Below the pieces are notes generated by a model. It saw nothing but the letters and a program-made list of their open reading frames with translations, ran no database searches and was not told where the DNA came from. From contig JAJUJL010000010.1 in assembly GCA_029265355.1 (NCBI GenBank), forward strand, positions 1 to 64,000: DNA of 64,000 bases, given 5' to 3'. A program made the position numbers and the translations under genes. Shown piece by piece: positions 38,403 through 45,083 of the stretch (its first letter is position 1; each line of letters begins with the position of its first letter). Source of the stretch: Chloroflexota bacterium (GTDB lineage: Bacteria > Chloroflexota > Anaerolineae > Anaerolineales > UBA4823).

Positions 38403-40082
38403 TCAGGCGTGCGGGGTTTGTTCCGACAGGTATTTGTCCCGGTTGGCGCGACGAGCGACCTTGCCGCTGCTGGTCTTCAGCAACCAACCGTAAGGGACAA
38501 TGTGCACGCGCCGCAAGGCGATGTCTGAGCTGCGCGTGATCACGCTGCGCAACTCGTCTGCCAGCGTGGGCCAGGATTGTGGATCGGGCAGGTCGGTTTC
38601 CGCGACCAGCACAACTTCTTCCGTGCCGGTGGTCTCGTTGGGCAATCCGAAGACCGCCACTCTCCCCGGATGCACCCCGGGCACCTCACCGGCCAGGTAT
38701 TCCAGGTCCTGTGGGTAAATGTTTTTGCCACCCACAATGATCAGGTCTTTCTTGCGACCGGTAATGAAAACCTCGCCATCCGCCAGGTAACCCAGGTCGC
38801 CCGTCAGGTACCAGCCATCTCGAAAGGATTGCGAGGTCAGCTCCGGGCGATTGTAATAACTGCTCAGCAGGCAGTTGCTCTGCAGGGCAATCTCTCCCAC
38901 GCGCCGTTCAGGCAGCGGCGCACCATGATCATCGAGGATGCGCACCGAGGTATTGTGGATCGGCCTGCCGGCGGAGAGCATCTTGATCGCCCCATTGCCC
39001 TGCGCGGGGGTGGCCCGACGCTGTTCTTGCAGCGCGCGGCGGTCGATTTCATCCACGCGCACCGGCTGGTCGATGCCGCCCTGGGTGACGGCGAAGACGT
39101 TTTCTGCCATAGCGTAGCAGGTGGCCAGGGCTTGCGGACGTAGCCCGTATGGCTGGAAGCGCTGCAGGAACTGAGCATGGCTCGACCAGTACATCGGTTC
39201 CGAGCAGTTGATCACCGCCCGCCAGGAGCTTAAGTCAACATTTTCCAGGTCGCGAGGGCGGATCTTCTGAGCGCAGAAATTGTAAGCGAAGTTGGGCAGC
39301 CAGCTCAACGTGCCTTTGTAACGAGAGACCGCCTGCAGTAATCGGTATGGCGCTCGCACCCAGTCGAAGGGCGACATCAGCACCAGGTGCGTGCCAGTCA
39401 GCAGCGGCATGAGAAAGCCGGCGATCAGCCCCATGTCGTGGTAGAGCGGCAGCCAGCTCACCACCACATCCTGCGGGCTGAGCTGTATGGCTGGGGCGTA
39501 CGCCTCGACCTGGTTGAACACCGCCCGGTTGGAAAGCGCCACGCCCTTCTGCAGGCCAGTGGTTCCGGAGGAATGTTGCAGTAAAACCAGGTCGCTGGGC
39601 TGGCGCTGCAGCCCGGGCAGCGGCGCGCCATCTGCGACTGCCTGGTAGGCGATTTGGCCTGCGTCCAGCACCAGACGCACGCTCGAGTCCGTTCCCATTG
39701 CCCGCTGCACTTCGGACAGGAAATCGCTGGAGGTGATCACGGCTGCCGGGCGGGTGACGGCAAACAGGGCTTTCAGCGAGCGGTGATATTGCTCGGGGGA
39801 GAGCTTCTCGGTGAGAAATGGCATGATGGCTGGCACAGCGCCCGCAAGCACAGCGCCAAAGAAGGCGTACACCAGCGCTTCACCGTGCGGCAGGATCAGG
39901 ATGATCACCTCGCCCGGCTGAACCCGCTGCTCAACCAAAGCCCTGGTATAGCTCAAGGATGCACGGAAGAGCAGGTCATAGGTGATCGGCTTGTCTGGCT
40001 GGCGTGTTTCCAGCAGCGTCAGGCAAACCTTGCCGGGTGTGTCCTGGTAATGGCGGAAGATCGTCTGAGCGACAGTGAGCAT
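38403..40082 (-). CDS. Fatty acyl-AMP ligase (FAAL-like) of a Dlt-like acylation cluster
   Basis: The 559-residue enzyme belongs to the ANL family. QHSSGTTGLQKGV is the P-loop (A3), YHDMGLIAG is typical of FAALs, and SWLPNFAYNFC matches the FAAL segment rather than acyl-CoA ligases. The hinge GRKKDLIIVGGKNIYPQDLE and the catalytic lysine in KTSSGKVARR are intact. FAALs make acyl-adenylates and pass the acyl group to a carrier protein, not to CoA. The start is ATG 40082; TTG 40088 is possible. The ACP gene ends 27 bases upstream. This enzyme would play the part of DltA, with a fatty or other carboxylic acid (inference). Confidence 0.82.
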   Translation of the reverse strand: MLTVAQTIFRHYQDTPGKVCLTLLETRQPDKPITYDLLFRASLSYTRALVEQRVQPGEVIILILPHGEALVYAFFGAVLAGAVPAIMPFLTEKLSPEQYHRSLKALFAVTRPAAVITSSDFLSEVQRAMGTDSSVRLVLDAGQIAYQAVADGAPLPGLQRQPSDLVLLQHSSGTTGLQKGVALSNRAVFNQVEAYAPAIQLSPQDVVVSWLPLYHDMGLIAGFLMPLLTGTHLVLMSPFDWVRAPYRLLQAVSRYKGTLSWLPNFAYNFCAQKIRPRDLENVDLSSWRAVINCSEPMYWSSHAQFLQRFQPYGLRPQALATCYAMAENVFAVTQGGIDQPVRVDEIDRRALQEQRRATPAQGNGAIKMLSAGRPIHNTSVRILDDHGAPLPERRVGEIALQSNCLLSSYYNRPELTSQSFRDGWYLTGDLGYLADGEVFITGRKKDLIIVGGKNIYPQDLEYLAGEVPGVHPGRVAVFGLPNETTGTEEVVLVAETDLPDPQSWPTLADELRSVITRSSDIALRRVHIVPYGWLLKTSSGKVARRANRDKYLSEQTPHA

Positions 40083-40109
40083 AAGCAATGCGTTTTGCCA
40101 ACCTGGGGG

Positions 40110-40352
40110 CTAGCGCCGGTCAGCGATGAGCGTCGCCAGGCTGCGCAGCGAGTCGAACGTGTCAGCGGTCAGCTCGGTGTCGTCGATGCGCACGCCGAAC
40201 TGCTCTTCGACAAAGACGGCCAGGTCCACCAGGTGAAAGGAGTCCACCAGCCCGGAGGAGATCAGGGCTTCATCGGGGTCGATGCGCCGGGTGGGCTGTT
40301 TGAGTATTTCACGGGCGATGTAGTCGGAAAGGGGTGAGATGATTTCTTCCAT
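40110..40352 (-). CDS. Acyl carrier protein of the Dlt-like cluster
   Basis: This 80-residue protein is a typical acidic carrier protein with four helices. Phosphopantetheine would attach to Ser38 in GLVDSFHLVDL, where DSF replaces the common DSL. The start at 40352 gives a normal-length ACP. An alternative ATG at 40382 overlaps the upstream SGNH gene by four bases (ATGA) and would add ten basic/hydrophobic residues. It lies between an SGNH lipoprotein and the FAAL, so it should accept the FAAL product and present it to the MBOAT protein, as DltC does. Confidence 0.88.
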   Translation of the reverse strand: MEEIISPLSDYIAREILKQPTRRIDPDEALISSGLVDSFHLVDLAVFVEEQFGVRIDDTELTADTFDSLRSLATLIADRR

Positions 40353-40378
40353 GAGCCTTATCAACCGGAGAGTGGTTA

Positions 40379-41401
40379 TCATGGCGCGGCCTGGATGGCG
40401 CTCCAAATGGCATCCAACATCTGCAGGGTGGTCAGGTTGCGCCAGGGCCAGGCTTTCTGCATCGCCTGGGGGTCGTCGAAGCGGTTGCCGGCCCAGGTCA
40501 GGTGCACACCGTCCTCTTGTAAGCCCCGTCCGGGCAATGGCTGGACGACCGCCCAATAATTGATCAGCGGAATCTCGTATGCTTGCGCCAGGCGCGCGAT
40601 GGCAGCGTTGATGCTGCCGTCGCCTTCCAGGTCATCGGCTTTGGTGGAAAGCACCGGCAGCACGCCATTCTCGATGGAGTATTCGATGGCGCGGCGCATC
40701 TGGCTCTCGAAAGAGTCCTGGTGCCAGACGTCATTGGAGCCGATCAAGATAAAGGCGATCGAAGGCCGGTTCAGGCGATACTCGCACGCCAGCGGACCTT
40801 CATCTGGCTGGCAGAGCTGGCGGTTGGCCCACAGCGGGGAGAAAAGCGAGGCGGCGTTGAAGCCGGCCTTGGCTGCCAGGCTGGCGCGGGCGTACGATCC
40901 CTGGAAAGCCTCGATGACTGGCTGCAACTCGTCGTATTCTCCCAGGCGATAGAAATTTGGGCCGCGGTCGAAGTCCGTGAGAAACCAGGCGGTAGTGCCG
41001 CCGCAATCGCCCACTTTCGAGAAGCCGGTGGGGTTATTCCCCATGGCCACGCCCTGGCGGTAGATCTCCACGGCGCGCGCCGAGATCGGCGAGATGATCG
41101 GCAAGGTTTTCCAGTCGTCCGGACCCAGGGTAAGGGCGGGCGGGGGTTGGGTGGCACCAGTTTGGGTCTGGGTGAGGGTGGGCGGTTGCCCCGTTGGCGG
41201 CGTCGGGGCGACGGGTGCGGTCGAGGCGCTGGTCGAGCTGGTTTGGGCTACCGCTGGCGTGGGCGGCAAAACTGCATCTTCCAGCATGGCAGCGGTGGTT
41301 CCCACGGCTGGCTGTGCAACCGGAGCAGATGTCGGGTATGTGCAGCCTGCCAACGCCAGGCAGGCGAGAAGGGTCAGAAATAACAGGTTATGGCGCTTCA
41401 T
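40379..41401 (-). CDS. SGNH/GDSL-hydrolase-like lipoprotein with Cys in place of the nucleophile Ser
   Basis: The 340-residue lipoprotein has a lipobox LALAGC (Cys20) and a long Pro/Thr/Gln linker (about 25-95). An SGNH fold follows. The block I position reads KVGDCGGTT, so the nucleophile is Cys133 instead of Ser. Block III is IGSND (N223) and the DxxH is DGVH (D297, H300). It is anchored outside the cell. A TATAAT nine bases before the ATG suggests a leaderless mRNA. The gene couples to the ACP, so a role in the extracytoplasmic acyl transfer is likely. The Cys could alter its chemistry or leave a binding role. Confidence 0.75.
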   Translation of the reverse strand: MKRHNLLFLTLLACLALAGCTYPTSAPVAQPAVGTTAAMLEDAVLPPTPAVAQTSSTSASTAPVAPTPPTGQPPTLTQTQTGATQPPPALTLGPDDWKTLPIISPISARAVEIYRQGVAMGNNPTGFSKVGDCGGTTAWFLTDFDRGPNFYRLGEYDELQPVIEAFQGSYARASLAAKAGFNAASLFSPLWANRQLCQPDEGPLACEYRLNRPSIAFILIGSNDVWHQDSFESQMRRAIEYSIENGVLPVLSTKADDLEGDGSINAAIARLAQAYEIPLINYWAVVQPLPGRGLQEDGVHLTWAGNRFDDPQAMQKAWPWRNLTTLQMLDAIWSAIQAAP

Positions 41402-41409
41402 CGGGGCTG

Positions 41410-41415
41410 ATTATA
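41410..41415 (-). promoter_or_regulatory. -10 box of a probable leaderless promoter for the SGNH lipoprotein/ACP/FAAL genes
   Basis: TATAAT on the minus strand is eight bases before the ATG at 41401, with no ribosome site between. It would start a transcript for the lipoprotein, ACP and FAAL genes apart from the MBOAT/SGNH pair. Confidence 0.45.
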
Positions 41416-41528
41416 TCCTACTCGCCAGGCCGCGAACGGGTACGCCCGCCTTCTGAGCCCGGTTAGCAGCCATGATGAACCATGCAATTCGGTGTAGAGC
41501 GCGGGTCTGTCCAGGTGAGGCTGGCGAA

Positions 41529-41587
41529 TAAAGCATTTGCCACAGTCGCTCCAATGGGGAGAATGTCTGGTGTGAGCAAATGCTTTA
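41529..41587. repeat. GCATTTGCC palindromic intergenic element (copy 2)
   Basis: TAAAGCATTTGC (41529-41540) and GCAAATGCTTTA (41576-41587) form a perfect 12-base inverted repeat with a 35-base loop, followed by CCCCTACG. It lies between the two SGNH genes and could end the MBOAT-SGNH transcript. Confidence 0.65.
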
Positions 41588-41623
41588 CCCCTACGTCTGT
41601 TTTTTTGGGGGACAGGTTTTGGC

Positions 41624-42781
41624 TCATTTCCCCTGCTCCGCGATTTCGATAATCTCCGGCGCCAGGCGCTCAGCCAGACGGCGCGAGCCTGTTGGATTCA
41701 GGTGCACCGCCGAATTGGTGAATTCCTGCGGCGGCGCCAGGTCCCACAAATCCAGGTAACGCCAGCCGTTCTGCTGGCTGGCGGATCGCATCAGGCTGCG
41801 GTAATCATCGTACGCCCAGCGGGGATAGTAAAAGTTGTACCGTATCTGGCTGTTTTTTCCCTGGCTGATGAACATCGGCTCGTTCACCAGCAGCACGGGA
41901 ACACCCTGAGCCATCTGCACGCCAGCGGCGATCACCTCGATGGCCAGGTCGGAGGGCTGCAGATGGGGCGGCTGCAGGCCGTGGAAGGAATCGTCAGCCT
42001 CCAGGTCGGACATCACCGGCGTGTAACTGGCGGGAATGTCCTGGTCAATGCCGGTGGCGCTCCACAGCACACCGTAGGCCTGCAGGCGGAATAGATCGGC
42101 CAGGTTGCGCCGGTCGCCGATCAGCGTGCGCTGCCAGAAGGTGGGCTTAGCGAGCGCGCCGGCTTCGGCCTCCAGCGGCAGGTTGTAGCGTTGGATCAGC
42201 TCGCGCACCGGCTGCGGGTTTTGCTGCAAGAGCGGCGGGAAGAGCTGCTTATCTCTGGGCAATGACTCCAGCGTGTGCAGCCAGACCACCAGATCTGGAT
42301 CGTAGTGCATGCCGTAAGAGAGGAGCAGCAGGTCTTTGGTCAGCGACATGACCGGGTAGCCGAGGTTGTAGGCGCGCACCCGGCGACCATCCGGCAGTGA
42401 CAAACCCAGGCGGTTGATCTGCGCTGAGAGGGTTTCTTCCGGCGGCAGCAGAAAGCCCCAGGTGGAGGAATCGCCAATCAGCAGCACGCGGTATTCAGCC
42501 GGGGATTTTGGGGCAGCGGAGATCTCGTGCGAGGCCAGCATGGCTTCCAGGTTGAACAGGCTCAGGTTGTAAGCGCGCTCGGGCACGTCGCCGTAGGGCA
42601 GGCGCACCCTGCCGGGGAACAGGCGGTTGTAGAGCGAGATGCGCCCCAGCGCCGGCTGGGGCTGGAGCAGCGCATACAGCAGGTTGAGCAGGAAGAACAG
42701 GAGCAGCGCTTTCGCCAGCACCCGGGCGAACGAGACCTGCCCATCCTGGGTTTCGGGATGTGGATTGCGTATAGCAGTCAT
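41624..42781 (-). CDS. Membrane-anchored SGNH-like protein, DltD/AlgJ-type partner of MBOAT
   Basis: The 385-residue protein has one N-terminal membrane helix (about 18-40) and an extracytoplasmic SGNH domain. Block I is LIGDSSTWG, with nucleophile Ser105. The C-terminal histidine is in SAVHLNPTG, but the Asp three residues before it is Ser. Membrane-anchored SGNH proteins encoded next to an MBOAT acyltransferase (DltD, AlgJ/AlgX, PatB types) finish acyl transfer to a surface polymer. The start overlaps the MBOAT stop by four bases, so they are made together. Downstream is a palindrome at 41529. Confidence 0.82.
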   Translation of the reverse strand: MTAIRNPHPETQDGQVSFARVLAKALLLFFLLNLLYALLQPQPALGRISLYNRLFPGRVRLPYGDVPERAYNLSLFNLEAMLASHEISAAPKSPAEYRVLLIGDSSTWGFLLPPEETLSAQINRLGLSLPDGRRVRAYNLGYPVMSLTKDLLLLSYGMHYDPDLVVWLHTLESLPRDKQLFPPLLQQNPQPVRELIQRYNLPLEAEAGALAKPTFWQRTLIGDRRNLADLFRLQAYGVLWSATGIDQDIPASYTPVMSDLEADDSFHGLQPPHLQPSDLAIEVIAAGVQMAQGVPVLLVNEPMFISQGKNSQIRYNFYYPRWAYDDYRSLMRSASQQNGWRYLDLWDLAPPQEFTNSAVHLNPTGSRRLAERLAPEIIEIAEQGK

Positions 42782-44205
42782 GGCTTCATCCCCAGCAGCG
42801 CCTGGAGAACGTGCAGCGAGCTCTGCAGGTCGGGCAGCGCGAACCAGACCCAGCCCAGGCTGACGAAGTTGAAGGTCAGCAGCCAGCCGCCGGCGGCGAG
42901 CACCCGCTGCTGCCAGGGCCTGGCCGGCGCAGTCCAGCCGCGGGCGCGCTGCCATTCGCTCCAGCGGTTGTGGACGAAAAGCCCGGCGGCGTGCCATAGC
43001 CCCCATAAAGCAAAATTCCAGGTGAGCCCGTGCCACAGCCCGATCAAGAGCATCACACCCGTTTGCCCCACCAGGATGATCGCCCAGATGGGCGGCTTTG
43101 CCGGGTGGGTGCGCAGCCAGCGGGTGAGCGGGTTGAAAAAATACGCCCGGAACCACTGCGCCAGCGTGATGTGCCAGGCGTTCCAGAAGCCGGTCAGGTT
43201 GGTTTTCAGGTAGGGAGCGTTGAAGTTTTCCGGCAGGCGGATGCCCAGCAAGCGTCCCAGTCCGATGGCGATGTCGGTGTAGCCGGAGAAATCCAGATAC
43301 AGGCGCAGGGCGTAGGCGTAGAGCAGCAACCACATCCACATCGGGCTATTCACCTGCAAGGCATTGGCGGGGTCCAGGGAAAAGATCGCCAGCGTGTCGG
43401 CGAGCACGTATTTTTTGAGCGCGCCTTGCAGCAGGCGCAGTCCCCCAGCCCGCACATCCTGGCGGCGGTCGCGCTGCTCCTGGCGCAGGTCTGTTAGGAA
43501 GCGCGGCAGGCGGTCGATGGGGCCGGAGGTGTACGCCGGGAAGAAGAGGGCATAGGCTAAAAATTCGGGCAGGCTGGCGGGGTAATGCTTCTTCTCCTGG
43601 GCGTCGCGCAGCACGTGCAGCAGGCGGAAGGCCAGGTAGGAATAGCCCAGCCAGCGCAGGTCGAGCGCAGATGCCAGCGAGGCGTCTTGCCCGCTCGCTG
43701 AGCGCAGGGCGGCGCTGGCCAGGCGGGCCAATGGCTCGCTCTTGAGGACGAGAAAGGCGCTCACCAGCAGCAGGATAGCCAGCAGGGGCGTGAGCGGGCG
43801 AGCGCGCAGCCGCCAGCCGACCAGCGCCAGCGCTGAAATGAGGGCCAATCCGGTGATCACCGCAGTCGCCTGGGGAGGGCGTCCAGGCGTCAGGCAGCAG
43901 AGCGCCGGCAGGTAGCGATTGAGCGCCACCAGCAGCACCAGCAGCAGCACGACGGACAGGGCAATGCCGTCCGAGCGGGTGAGTGTTTGTGGCGAAGGCC
44001 GGCTTACCGCCCAGGTGAGCAGCGCCAAGCCCAGGGCGGCGGTCGGCAGCCAGAAATCCAGCCCGCGCACCGCAATCGCCGGCTGCAGCCAGAAGATCGC
44101 CAGCAGGCTGAGCAGCGCCAGCGCCCAGGCGCGCCGGTTTGGCGGCAGCAGCCAGCCGCCTGCCAGCGCGATCGCGATGAGCACCGCAAGTTGGGTGAGG
44201 GTCAT
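42778..44205 (-). CDS. MBOAT-family O-acyltransferase, DltB-like
   Basis: This 475-residue integral membrane protein has about eleven helices and the MBOAT signature. The catalytic His lies in IGLWHGLTWN, with a second in GLWHAAG. KYVLADTL, YLDFSGYTDIAIG and LPENFNAPY are characteristic of DltB/AlgI/PatA relatives. It should move an acyl group across the membrane from the ACP to an external acceptor. The start is ATG 44205; a frame open to 44289 runs into a palindrome and is discarded. The SGNH gene is coupled by a four-base overlap. Confidence 0.9.
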   Translation of the reverse strand: MTLTQLAVLIAIALAGGWLLPPNRRAWALALLSLLAIFWLQPAIAVRGLDFWLPTAALGLALLTWAVSRPSPQTLTRSDGIALSVVLLLVLLVALNRYLPALCCLTPGRPPQATAVITGLALISALALVGWRLRARPLTPLLAILLLVSAFLVLKSEPLARLASAALRSASGQDASLASALDLRWLGYSYLAFRLLHVLRDAQEKKHYPASLPEFLAYALFFPAYTSGPIDRLPRFLTDLRQEQRDRRQDVRAGGLRLLQGALKKYVLADTLAIFSLDPANALQVNSPMWMWLLLYAYALRLYLDFSGYTDIAIGLGRLLGIRLPENFNAPYLKTNLTGFWNAWHITLAQWFRAYFFNPLTRWLRTHPAKPPIWAIILVGQTGVMLLIGLWHGLTWNFALWGLWHAAGLFVHNRWSEWQRARGWTAPARPWQQRVLAAGGWLLTFNFVSLGWVWFALPDLQSSLHVLQALLGMKP

Positions 44206-44211
44206 GCGAGC

Positions 44212-44277
44212 AACCCCCTCCCAGCCTCCCCCATTTTGCGCAGCAAAATGGGGGAGGTGCCGGTGGCGGAGGGGGTT
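44212..44277. repeat. Nested palindrome upstream of the MBOAT gene
   Basis: A perfect 14-base inverted repeat (CCTCCCCCATTTTG, 44225-44238 with 44244-44257) with a 5-base loop lies inside an outer 10-base pair of arms (44212-44221 with 44268-44277). It may form a cruciform or an mRNA structure in the MBOAT leader. Confidence 0.65.
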
Positions 44278-44506
44278 TTCCTCCCGCATAAGCTACAGTG
44301 GTGTTTGCCTGGGGCACGACACGGATTTTGACACGGATACACGGATTGGATGCGGGTAGGGGCGACCCACGCGAGTGGACAGGCGCGCAGGCGGGCGCGG
44401 TGTGTTGGTAGTGATGGATGCAAGGTGGGGGAGAACGGGTCGCCCGTAGCGGCAGGCGTCCGACTCGGATATACGGAAGACAGGCATTCCCTCGCCGAGA
44501 GGTATT

Positions 44507-44545
44507 CCCTCCCCCAAAATCCAAAGACGGGATTTTGGGGGAGGG
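44507..44545. repeat. Palindrome downstream of the DltX-like gene
   Basis: A perfect 16-base stem (CCCTCCCCCAAAATCC, 44507-44522 with 44530-44545) and a 7-base loop lie 22 bases past the stop of the 39-residue gene. It is related in sequence to the palindrome at 44225-44257. It could attenuate or process the transcript. Confidence 0.65.
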
Positions 44546-44566
44546 CAGGGAGGGGGTCGGCGCGCC

Positions 44567-44686
44567 TCAAAACCCCTGGTAGATCCACTGCGGAGCATCT
44601 CCGGCGGTGAAGATCAGCAGCGCGACCAGCGCCAGGCACAGCAAAACAGCGTATAAATTTTCTCGGGTCAGGATGCGGCGCAGCAT
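44567..44686 (-). CDS. DltX-like single-TM micropeptide (39 residues)
   Basis: This small ORF (ATG 44686, TGA 44569-44567) encodes 39 residues: MLRRILTREN, then a hydrophobic helix from about L11 to F26, then a polar turn and the C-terminus APQWIYQGF. DltX of Gram-positive dlt operons is a similar small single-TM protein that ends in an aromatic-I-Y-x-x-F motif (FIYNEF-like); its Tyr is reported as the acyl carrier in D-alanine export. The aromatic-Ile-Tyr-x-x-Phe ending matches. It lies eight bases after the lipoprotein gene and 361 bases upstream of the MBOAT gene on the same strand. Its ribosome site is weak (GGTAG). The call rests on size, topology, ending and neighbours. Confidence 0.72.
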   Translation of the reverse strand: MLRRILTRENLYAVLLCLALVALLIFTAGDAPQWIYQGF

Positions 44687-44693
44687 GCAGAAT

Positions 44694-45083
44694 CTACCGG
44701 TAGCCGCACATCAGCCAGTCGCCGCCCTGCTGCACCACCTGGTAGGTGCGCTCGGCGAGGTCGAGCTCCAGCACTTCGTTGCCGTAATTGGCGACGATCT
44801 TTCCGGTGCAGGATACCAGCGTGGTCTCGCCATCCGCGCCGCTTTCCTGGCAGGAGGCCTCTTCCAGGGTGACGGTGACCGCGGCGAAGGACTCCAGCTC
44901 GAGCTGGGCGGCGGCCTCCCAATCCGGGCAGGAGAGCGCCGCCAGGCGGGCGCCGTCGCGGTCGACCAGCGCCTGAAGGTAGGAGAGCACCGCGCCGGTG
45001 GGGCTATTTTGCGCGCCGTTGCTGCAGGCGGCGGTGAGGATCAGCATCGATATCAACAAACAACGATAGAACCAGGTTCGCAT
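44694..45083 (-). CDS. Small secreted lipoprotein, NTF2-like fold possible
   Basis: This 129-residue product has a lipoprotein signal (LILTAAC, Cys20), leaving about 109 residues on the outer face. SPTGAVLSYLQALVDRDGARLAALSC is a helical N-part; the remainder is beta-rich with EVLELDLAERTYQVVQQGGDWLMCGYR. Three further cysteines (about 52, 78 and 91) and one near the end could pair. GGAGA precedes the ATG. The 39-residue peptide follows eight bases later, so it belongs to the same unit. No family assigned. Confidence 0.6.
   Translation of the reverse strand: MRTWFYRCLLISMLILTAACSNGAQNSPTGAVLSYLQALVDRDGARLAALSCPDWEAAAQLELESFAAVTVTLEEASCQESGADGETTLVSCTGKIVANYGNEVLELDLAERTYQVVQQGGDWLMCGYR

Follow-up and report, generated by a model that had tools for sequence, protein, structure and literature searches.

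The window that is considered here, a 64,000-nt stretch of Chloroflexota DNA, carries on its minus strand a seven-gene operon in which a fatty acyl-AMP ligase (FAAL) and an acyl carrier protein (ACP) keep company with a membrane-bound O-acyltransferase (MBOAT), two SGNH-fold proteins, a small lipoprotein and a 39-residue membrane peptide. The gene order is LIPO-peptide-MBOAT-SGNH1-SGNH2-ACP-FAAL (the SGNH proteins are called SG1 and SG2 below). LIPO (44694..45083), the first gene of the operon, encodes an NTF2/DUF4440-like small lipoprotein with four conserved Cys residues besides the lipobox Cys; its stop lies 7 nt ahead of the start of the peptide open reading frame (ORF; 44567..44686). A palindrome-rich spacer of 361 bp (44206..44566) separates the peptide ORF from the gene for a DltB-like MBOAT (42778..44205, with the start probably at the ATG at 44205 rather than at 44289), and there follow the genes for SG1, which is membrane-anchored (41624..42781), the lipoprotein SG2 (40379..41401), the ACP (40110..40382) and the FAAL (38403..40088). 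The MBOAT stop and SG1 start, and likewise the SG2 stop and ACP start, share ATGA overlaps. Family searches with the window proteins confirm the AMP-binding/FAAL, PP-binding, GDSL and MBOAT assignments. A previous sequence-only reading had already placed the FAAL, ACP, MBOAT, peptide and both SGNH genes on one strand at these positions, all of which are confirmed; what it omitted is the conserved LIPO gene, which heads the operon in most relatives. The operon is conserved while the flanking genes differ from genome to genome.

Two systems provide the points of reference for what follows. In the Dlt pathway, a carrier-bound acyl group is transferred to a Tyr in the tail of DltX and from there to a Ser of DltD. 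In PatA, the corresponding Tyr is located in a fused tail, its acylation has been demonstrated, and PatB accepts an acetyl-Tyr hexapeptide as donor. The shuttle mechanism is regarded as experimentally established for Dlt and PatAB, and among the MBOAT/SGNH pathways only Dlt is credited, as of 2025, with both carrier protein and microprotein (PMC12148441).

The 39-codon minus-strand ORF encodes the peptide MLRRILTRENLYAVLLCLALVALLIFTAGDAPQWIYQGF, which has its hydropathy peak at residues 11-29, corresponding to one transmembrane (TM) helix, and ends in WIYQGF, with Tyr36 as the presumed acyl-carrying residue. Alignment of 24 such peptides shows W-I-Y-Q-G-F, N10, A13 and P32 to be invariant; most of these residues fall in the last eight positions, around the Tyr, while the helix is variable. 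Whole-genome searches with the peptide profile give E-values of 1e-8 to 1e-24. Of the 30 best MBOAT loci in related whole genomes, 29 have a small ORF ending in WIYQGF immediately before the MBOAT gene; at the 30th (L019, from the same genome as L126, referred to below) the N-terminal half is kept and then runs into a stretch of N. A wider set of 80 named loci comes from contig records titled Chloroflexi or Anaerolineae (including Anaerolineales, Anaerolineaceae and Thermoflexales), the isolates among them being Leptolinea tardivitalis YMTK-2, Leptolinea sp. HRD-7 and Anaerolineaceae BD1. All 80 have a one-helix peptide ahead of the MBOAT, counting two (L126 and L158) in which the conserved N-terminal half is present and a run of N masks the C-terminus. 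The C-terminal motif is present in the other 78, exactly as WIYQGF in 71; the rarer endings, found once or twice each, are WIYLGF, WIYQAF, WIYQSF, WLYQGF, WIYQNF and WIYQGY. A divergent peptide in genome G531 ends in FIYQGF.

An ORF of just 39 codons that is separated from the MBOAT gene by 361 bp in its source genome could be a chance frame or an annotation artefact. Its presence at 80 of 80 loci and the E-values just quoted refute that notion, to which we attach next to no probability: judged by its conservation, the ORF is a real gene, and the suspicion in the sequence-only reading that a small ORF had been overlooked here was right. So was its expectation that Y-x-x-F peptides would be found beside homologous MBOAT genes in related Chloroflexota, which is borne out in essentially every case. 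The long spacer is peculiar to the source genome and looks like inserted repeat elements; in relatives, the two genes overlap or lie at most about 140 bp apart. The stop codon of the peptide gene and the start codon of the MBOAT gene usually overlap or are a few bases apart, which suggests that the two are translationally coupled.

Some further observations on the peptide are recorded here. Its Pfam matches (EVI2A, HEATR5A) are weak and judged to be spurious. A 661-aa frame in G688 that might have been taken for a peptide fusion was rejected as an overlapping frame, and the peptide there comes after the FAAL in another frame. At least two copies of the shuttle peptide are found in G420, G425, G666, G675 and G706, possibly reflecting duplicated systems; one of the copies in G706 is broken by a stop.

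The MBOAT scores 211 bits against the DltB model TIGR04091, under its cut-off of 375, and DltB is its only solved relative (4.9e-57), in an alignment that takes in both catalytic His regions. His344 and His391 (P0001 numbering) are invariant, and the catalytic His motifs are found in the named loci almost throughout (WHG in 80 of 80, FWN.WH in 78 of 80). The protein terminates about 20 residues past GWVWFALP without a C-terminal motif of its own. Paralogous MBOATs of the same genomes carry fused endings (FIYFQF, FIYGQF, VLYAKF), and the reference non-Dlt MBOATs all end in F[IL]Y..[FY]. In an unrooted maximum-likelihood tree the operon MBOATs form their own clade (support 100/99) beside the four DltB proteins (100/100, on a long branch), with 14 fused MBOATs making up a third group (100/99). 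A common origin of the operon MBOAT and DltB is possible on this evidence. The GGNR motif was tried as a marker of CoA-type MBOATs and dropped: fused paralogues also lack it. Further fused MBOATs of the FIYFQF type are found beside the split one at L047, L153, L158, L164 and L179, and at L049 fused MBOATs of that type are present with no split one seen.

Since helices that have split off from a protein can be structural, the peptide might serve the MBOAT purely as a missing helix and carry no acyl group at all. Against this stands the pattern of conservation, with its invariant residues mostly gathered around the Tyr and its varying helix; moreover, the same motif forms acyl-Tyr in PatA and DltX (PMC12148441). 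We hold a purely structural role to be highly improbable.

The model of SG1 has an SGNH fold (predicted local distance difference test score, pLDDT, 90) following an N-terminal TM helix. Its fold matches are SGNH hydrolases, with TesA at Z 17.0 (root-mean-square deviation, rmsd, 2.5 over 170 residues). The longest alignment, 288 residues, is with DltD (3bma; Z 14.5, rmsd 5.4), but simpler SGNH enzymes score higher (up to Z 17 over 170 residues), and the SGNH fold is as far as the resemblance of SG1 to DltD can be traced. The Pfam match to GDSL is weak. Ser105, the putative nucleophile in the GDS motif, and His360 are invariant. SG2 also models as an SGNH fold (pLDDT 85), with TesA, PatB and OatA matched at Z 15; neither PatB nor OatA is among the matches listed for SG1, a difference on which nothing is built here. 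In its orthologues an invariant Cys133 takes the nucleophile position (GDC in place of GDS), C197, E201, C206, E207, K254 and D256 are conserved (K254, D256 and E207 invariantly) and blocks III (GxND) and V (DxxH) are not. By these sequence features the active site of SG2 is unusual and not that of a standard Ser hydrolase; the protein may function as an acyl-Cys relay or in binding.

The ligase was the ground on which the sequence-only reading proposed a fatty or other carboxylic acyl group rather than D-alanine, and the exclusion of D-alanine is well founded by sequence, the ligase being FAAL-like and not DltA-like. Its best NCBIfam match is PRK09192, fatty acyl-AMP ligase (366 bits, under the strict cut-off). 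Its best PDB matches are all to FAALs and extend over the full length (E. coli 3pbk, 3.4e-74; Legionella 3kxw, 1.3e-72). In contrast, the best-aligned stretches of CoA ligases break off or begin at about residues 344-369, the site of the FAAL-specific insertion (described in PMC11837247), for which the corresponding region of the window protein is at about 345-368. The phosphopantetheine site of the ACP, GL.DSF, is conserved. FAALs activate fatty acids (PMC11837247), and the acyl group handled by the operon is therefore most likely a fatty acid. (In the source genome, G000, contigs C17, C22 and C33 contain very large multi-domain frames, 1900-3154 aa long and each encoding a number of amino-acid adenylation domains; these are clusters of the nonribosomal peptide synthetase type.)

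Does the operon nevertheless specify a divergent form of D-alanylation, in which the ligase still acts on an amino acid (D-Ala or some other) and an aminoacylated polymer is the product? Its part list and topology match those of dltXABCD: a ligase, a carrier protein, a motif-less MBOAT and a membrane-anchored SGNH protein are common to both, as is a one-helix microprotein with C-terminal aromatic-x-Tyr-x-x-Phe (DltX of Lactobacillus crispatus ends in SVHFIYNEF, the operon peptide having Trp at the position of the first Phe), and DltB, as already noted, is the closest solved relative of the MBOAT. Against this, the ligase that so clearly resembles FAALs reaches a mere 27 bits with the DltA model TIGR01734, whose cut-off is 560, and nothing in the whole genome exceeds that cut-off; the ACP likewise stays far below the cut-offs of the DltC models. 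A search for DltX (PF12459) found no match in 61 relatives, the source genome included, with positive results for the Bacillus subtilis and Lactococcus lactis controls, and none of 24 operon peptides that were searched yielded a DltX match. Divergent D-alanylation is very unlikely on these grounds. The operon differs from Dlt in having a FAAL in place of DltA, an ACP that is not DltC, a peptide that is not PF12459 and an MBOAT in a separate clade, in its additional Cys-type SGNH lipoprotein and NTF2-like lipoprotein, and in its Chloroflexota host. Given the failure of the DltX, DltA and DltC models, it is, as far as its sequences tell, Dlt-like in its working and not a Dlt system.

How widely and how coherently these genes are distributed bears on whether they work together. 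The operon was found in 34 of 400 genomes sampled across the phylum, all 34 belonging to the class Anaerolineae and none of the sampled genomes outside it yielding the operon; sampling within Anaerolineae gave 71 of 298 genomes, in a dozen or more families. Beyond Chloroflexota genomes, a plasmid collection was searched, and the sole close MBOAT in it is from Leptolinea. In 101 related whole genomes, for which MBOAT, SG1, peptide and FAAL were each searched independently, the MBOAT has a match in 61, about 50 of them orthologous. SG1 is present in 50 of the 50 genomes with an orthologous MBOAT and in one of the 51 others, the peptide in 48 and one, respectively (in G042 and G060, where it was missed, the MBOAT is at a contig end), and the FAAL orthologue in 46 and seven. 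Fisher's p for these co-occurrences is between 1e-16 and 1e-28, uncorrected for phylogeny. G073 and G085 have their SG1 gene at a distance from the MBOAT (30 kb off, or on a different contig), implying that the co-occurrence amounts to more than linkage. Loci that seem to lack a part usually have it elsewhere: a FAAL orthologue (54-65% identical) was located in seven of eight genomes tested whose MBOAT locus is without one (a ninth that was searched, G688, has it next to the peptide), and SG1 in all nine for which none was labelled at the MBOAT locus, some of these being unlabelled ORFs that are in fact adjacent to the MBOAT.

Leptolinea sp. HRD-7 carries LIPO-peptide-MBOAT on a 212-kb plasmid (L182, 8380-10359); in this, the one annotated record that was inspected, all three are annotated as hypothetical. 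A gene for a prolyl-tRNA editing protein lies directly upstream, and the same contig (G748:C2) carries SG1 at another place. For G021, peptide and FAAL were matched but neither MBOAT nor SG1, which is probably a gap in a genome that is 85% complete.

Other MBOAT/SGNH systems draw on acetyl-CoA (PMC12148441), and one can accordingly imagine that MBOAT, peptide and SG1 carry out ordinary acetyl-CoA-fed O-acetylation while the neighbouring FAAL and ACP serve another lipid pathway. The FAAL orthologue in seven of the 51 genomes without the MBOAT, and the few genomes that have the rest of the machine without it, fit that arrangement. Its co-occurrence with the MBOAT in 46 of 50 does not, nor does the structure of rearranged loci, in which FAAL and ACP remain linked to the peptide: in G688 the peptide is directly behind the FAAL, with the MBOAT on contig 7, and in G575 and G679 FAAL-ACP stands back to back with peptide-MBOAT-SG1. 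Acetyl-CoA would also have no use for a dedicated ACP, and every other known pairing of a DltB-like, motif-less MBOAT with a split peptide includes a carrier protein. On balance, acetyl-CoA-fed O-acetylation is unlikely.

The operon has the features of the MBOAT/SGNH acyl-shuttle class (the aromatic-x-Tyr-x-x-Phe hexapeptide, the conserved MBOAT His and an extracytoplasmic Ser-SGNH protein), and by every sequence feature tested it belongs to that broader class. PatA/PatB and the AlgI-type systems share with it the MBOAT, the SGNH protein and a C-terminal hexapeptide whose Tyr carries the acyl group (PMC12148441), but their MBOATs bear the motif themselves, fused on by way of additional helices, the donor is an acyl-CoA, and carrier protein and microprotein are absent. 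Known FAALs (E. coli 3PBK, Legionella 3KXW, FadD32) are like the operon enzyme in their full-length match, which includes the FAAL-specific insertion, and in having an ACP partner; they differ in mostly serving polyketide and peptide synthesis (PMC11837247), whereas the partner in the operon would be a membrane acyl shuttle. The FAAL review just cited makes no mention of MBOAT, and a literature search for papers linking DltX with FAAL found none.

FAAL, ACP, MBOAT, peptide and SG1 match the Dlt/PatA scheme one to one, and we consider it likely that the operon specifies a carrier-protein-fed MBOAT/SGNH acyl shuttle with a separate microprotein, parallel to Dlt; the roles of ligase, carrier, MBOAT, SGNH protein and micropeptide that the sequence-only reading had assigned from Dlt all find their counterparts, with FAAL and ACP on the donor side. 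Several observations weigh on the other side. Aligned with L. crispatus DltX, the peptide matches over the last 12 columns alone, at an alignment probability of 1.3%, and the two have just the C-terminal motif and topology in common; the ACP scores 17.9 bits with the DltC model TIGR01688 (cut-off 52) and 22.5 with PRK05087 (cut-off 68); the Asp of block V (DxxH) in SG1 is Ser or Thr in every member. There are also the seven genomes with a FAAL orthologue and no MBOAT, and those in which the FAAL is missing nearby or at the strict cut-off despite the presence of other parts (G750; G005, G017, G075 and G095).

From the gene set, its order, conservation and co-occurrence, and from the families, the motif and the folds, we infer as follows the chemical steps of this shuttle, which way they run, what acyl group is carried and what accepts it. 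The substrate of the FAAL would be a carboxylic acid in free form (a fatty acid most likely), which the enzyme would adenylate and load on to the phosphopantetheine of its dedicated ACP. The acyl-ACP would dock at the cytoplasmic face of the MBOAT, which would pass the acyl group through the membrane on to Tyr36, in the WIYQGF tail that the peptide would expose outside the cytoplasm. The tail would then swing to SG1, with Ser105 receiving the acyl group, and SG1 would hand it on to an acceptor in the envelope, which is probably a polymer such as a glycan. SG2 and LIPO may be envelope-side accessories, acting as a second relay, in acceptor binding or in editing. Chloroflexota are considered to be monoderm with extra layers of protein or polysaccharide (PMC13319060), which makes a surface glycan the obvious candidate acceptor by inference. 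The fuller picture, in which FAAL/ACP-loaded fatty chains pass through the MBOAT, a Tyr ester on the microprotein and a Ser-SGNH relay, with or without the Cys-SGNH protein, to a surface glycan, giving these monoderm-like Chloroflexota a lipid-decorated envelope, is put forward tentatively, as somewhat less probable than not. The sequence-only reading suggested a new branch of polymer acylation. The separate clade of the MBOAT is in keeping with this, as are the negative results with the Dlt family models, the polymer itself being the presumed acceptor.

By its sequence features, then, the operon looks like a second form of the known MBOAT-Tyr-SGNH acyl shuttle in which the peptide is split off and a carrier protein feeds the system: a second, independent-looking MBOAT/SGNH pathway with carrier and microprotein, from another phylum and with a different donor enzyme. 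If it is indeed a fatty-acylation machine, no carrier-fed microprotein shuttle apart from Dlt would have been known before it. It makes it possible to test whether fatty acyl groups can enter the shuttle chemistry, and how the tyrosine shuttle has been split or fused in evolution. It also bears on how the outermost layers of the Chloroflexota, which are poorly understood, are decorated; these bacteria are without lipopolysaccharide (LPS) and BAM genes (PMC13319060).

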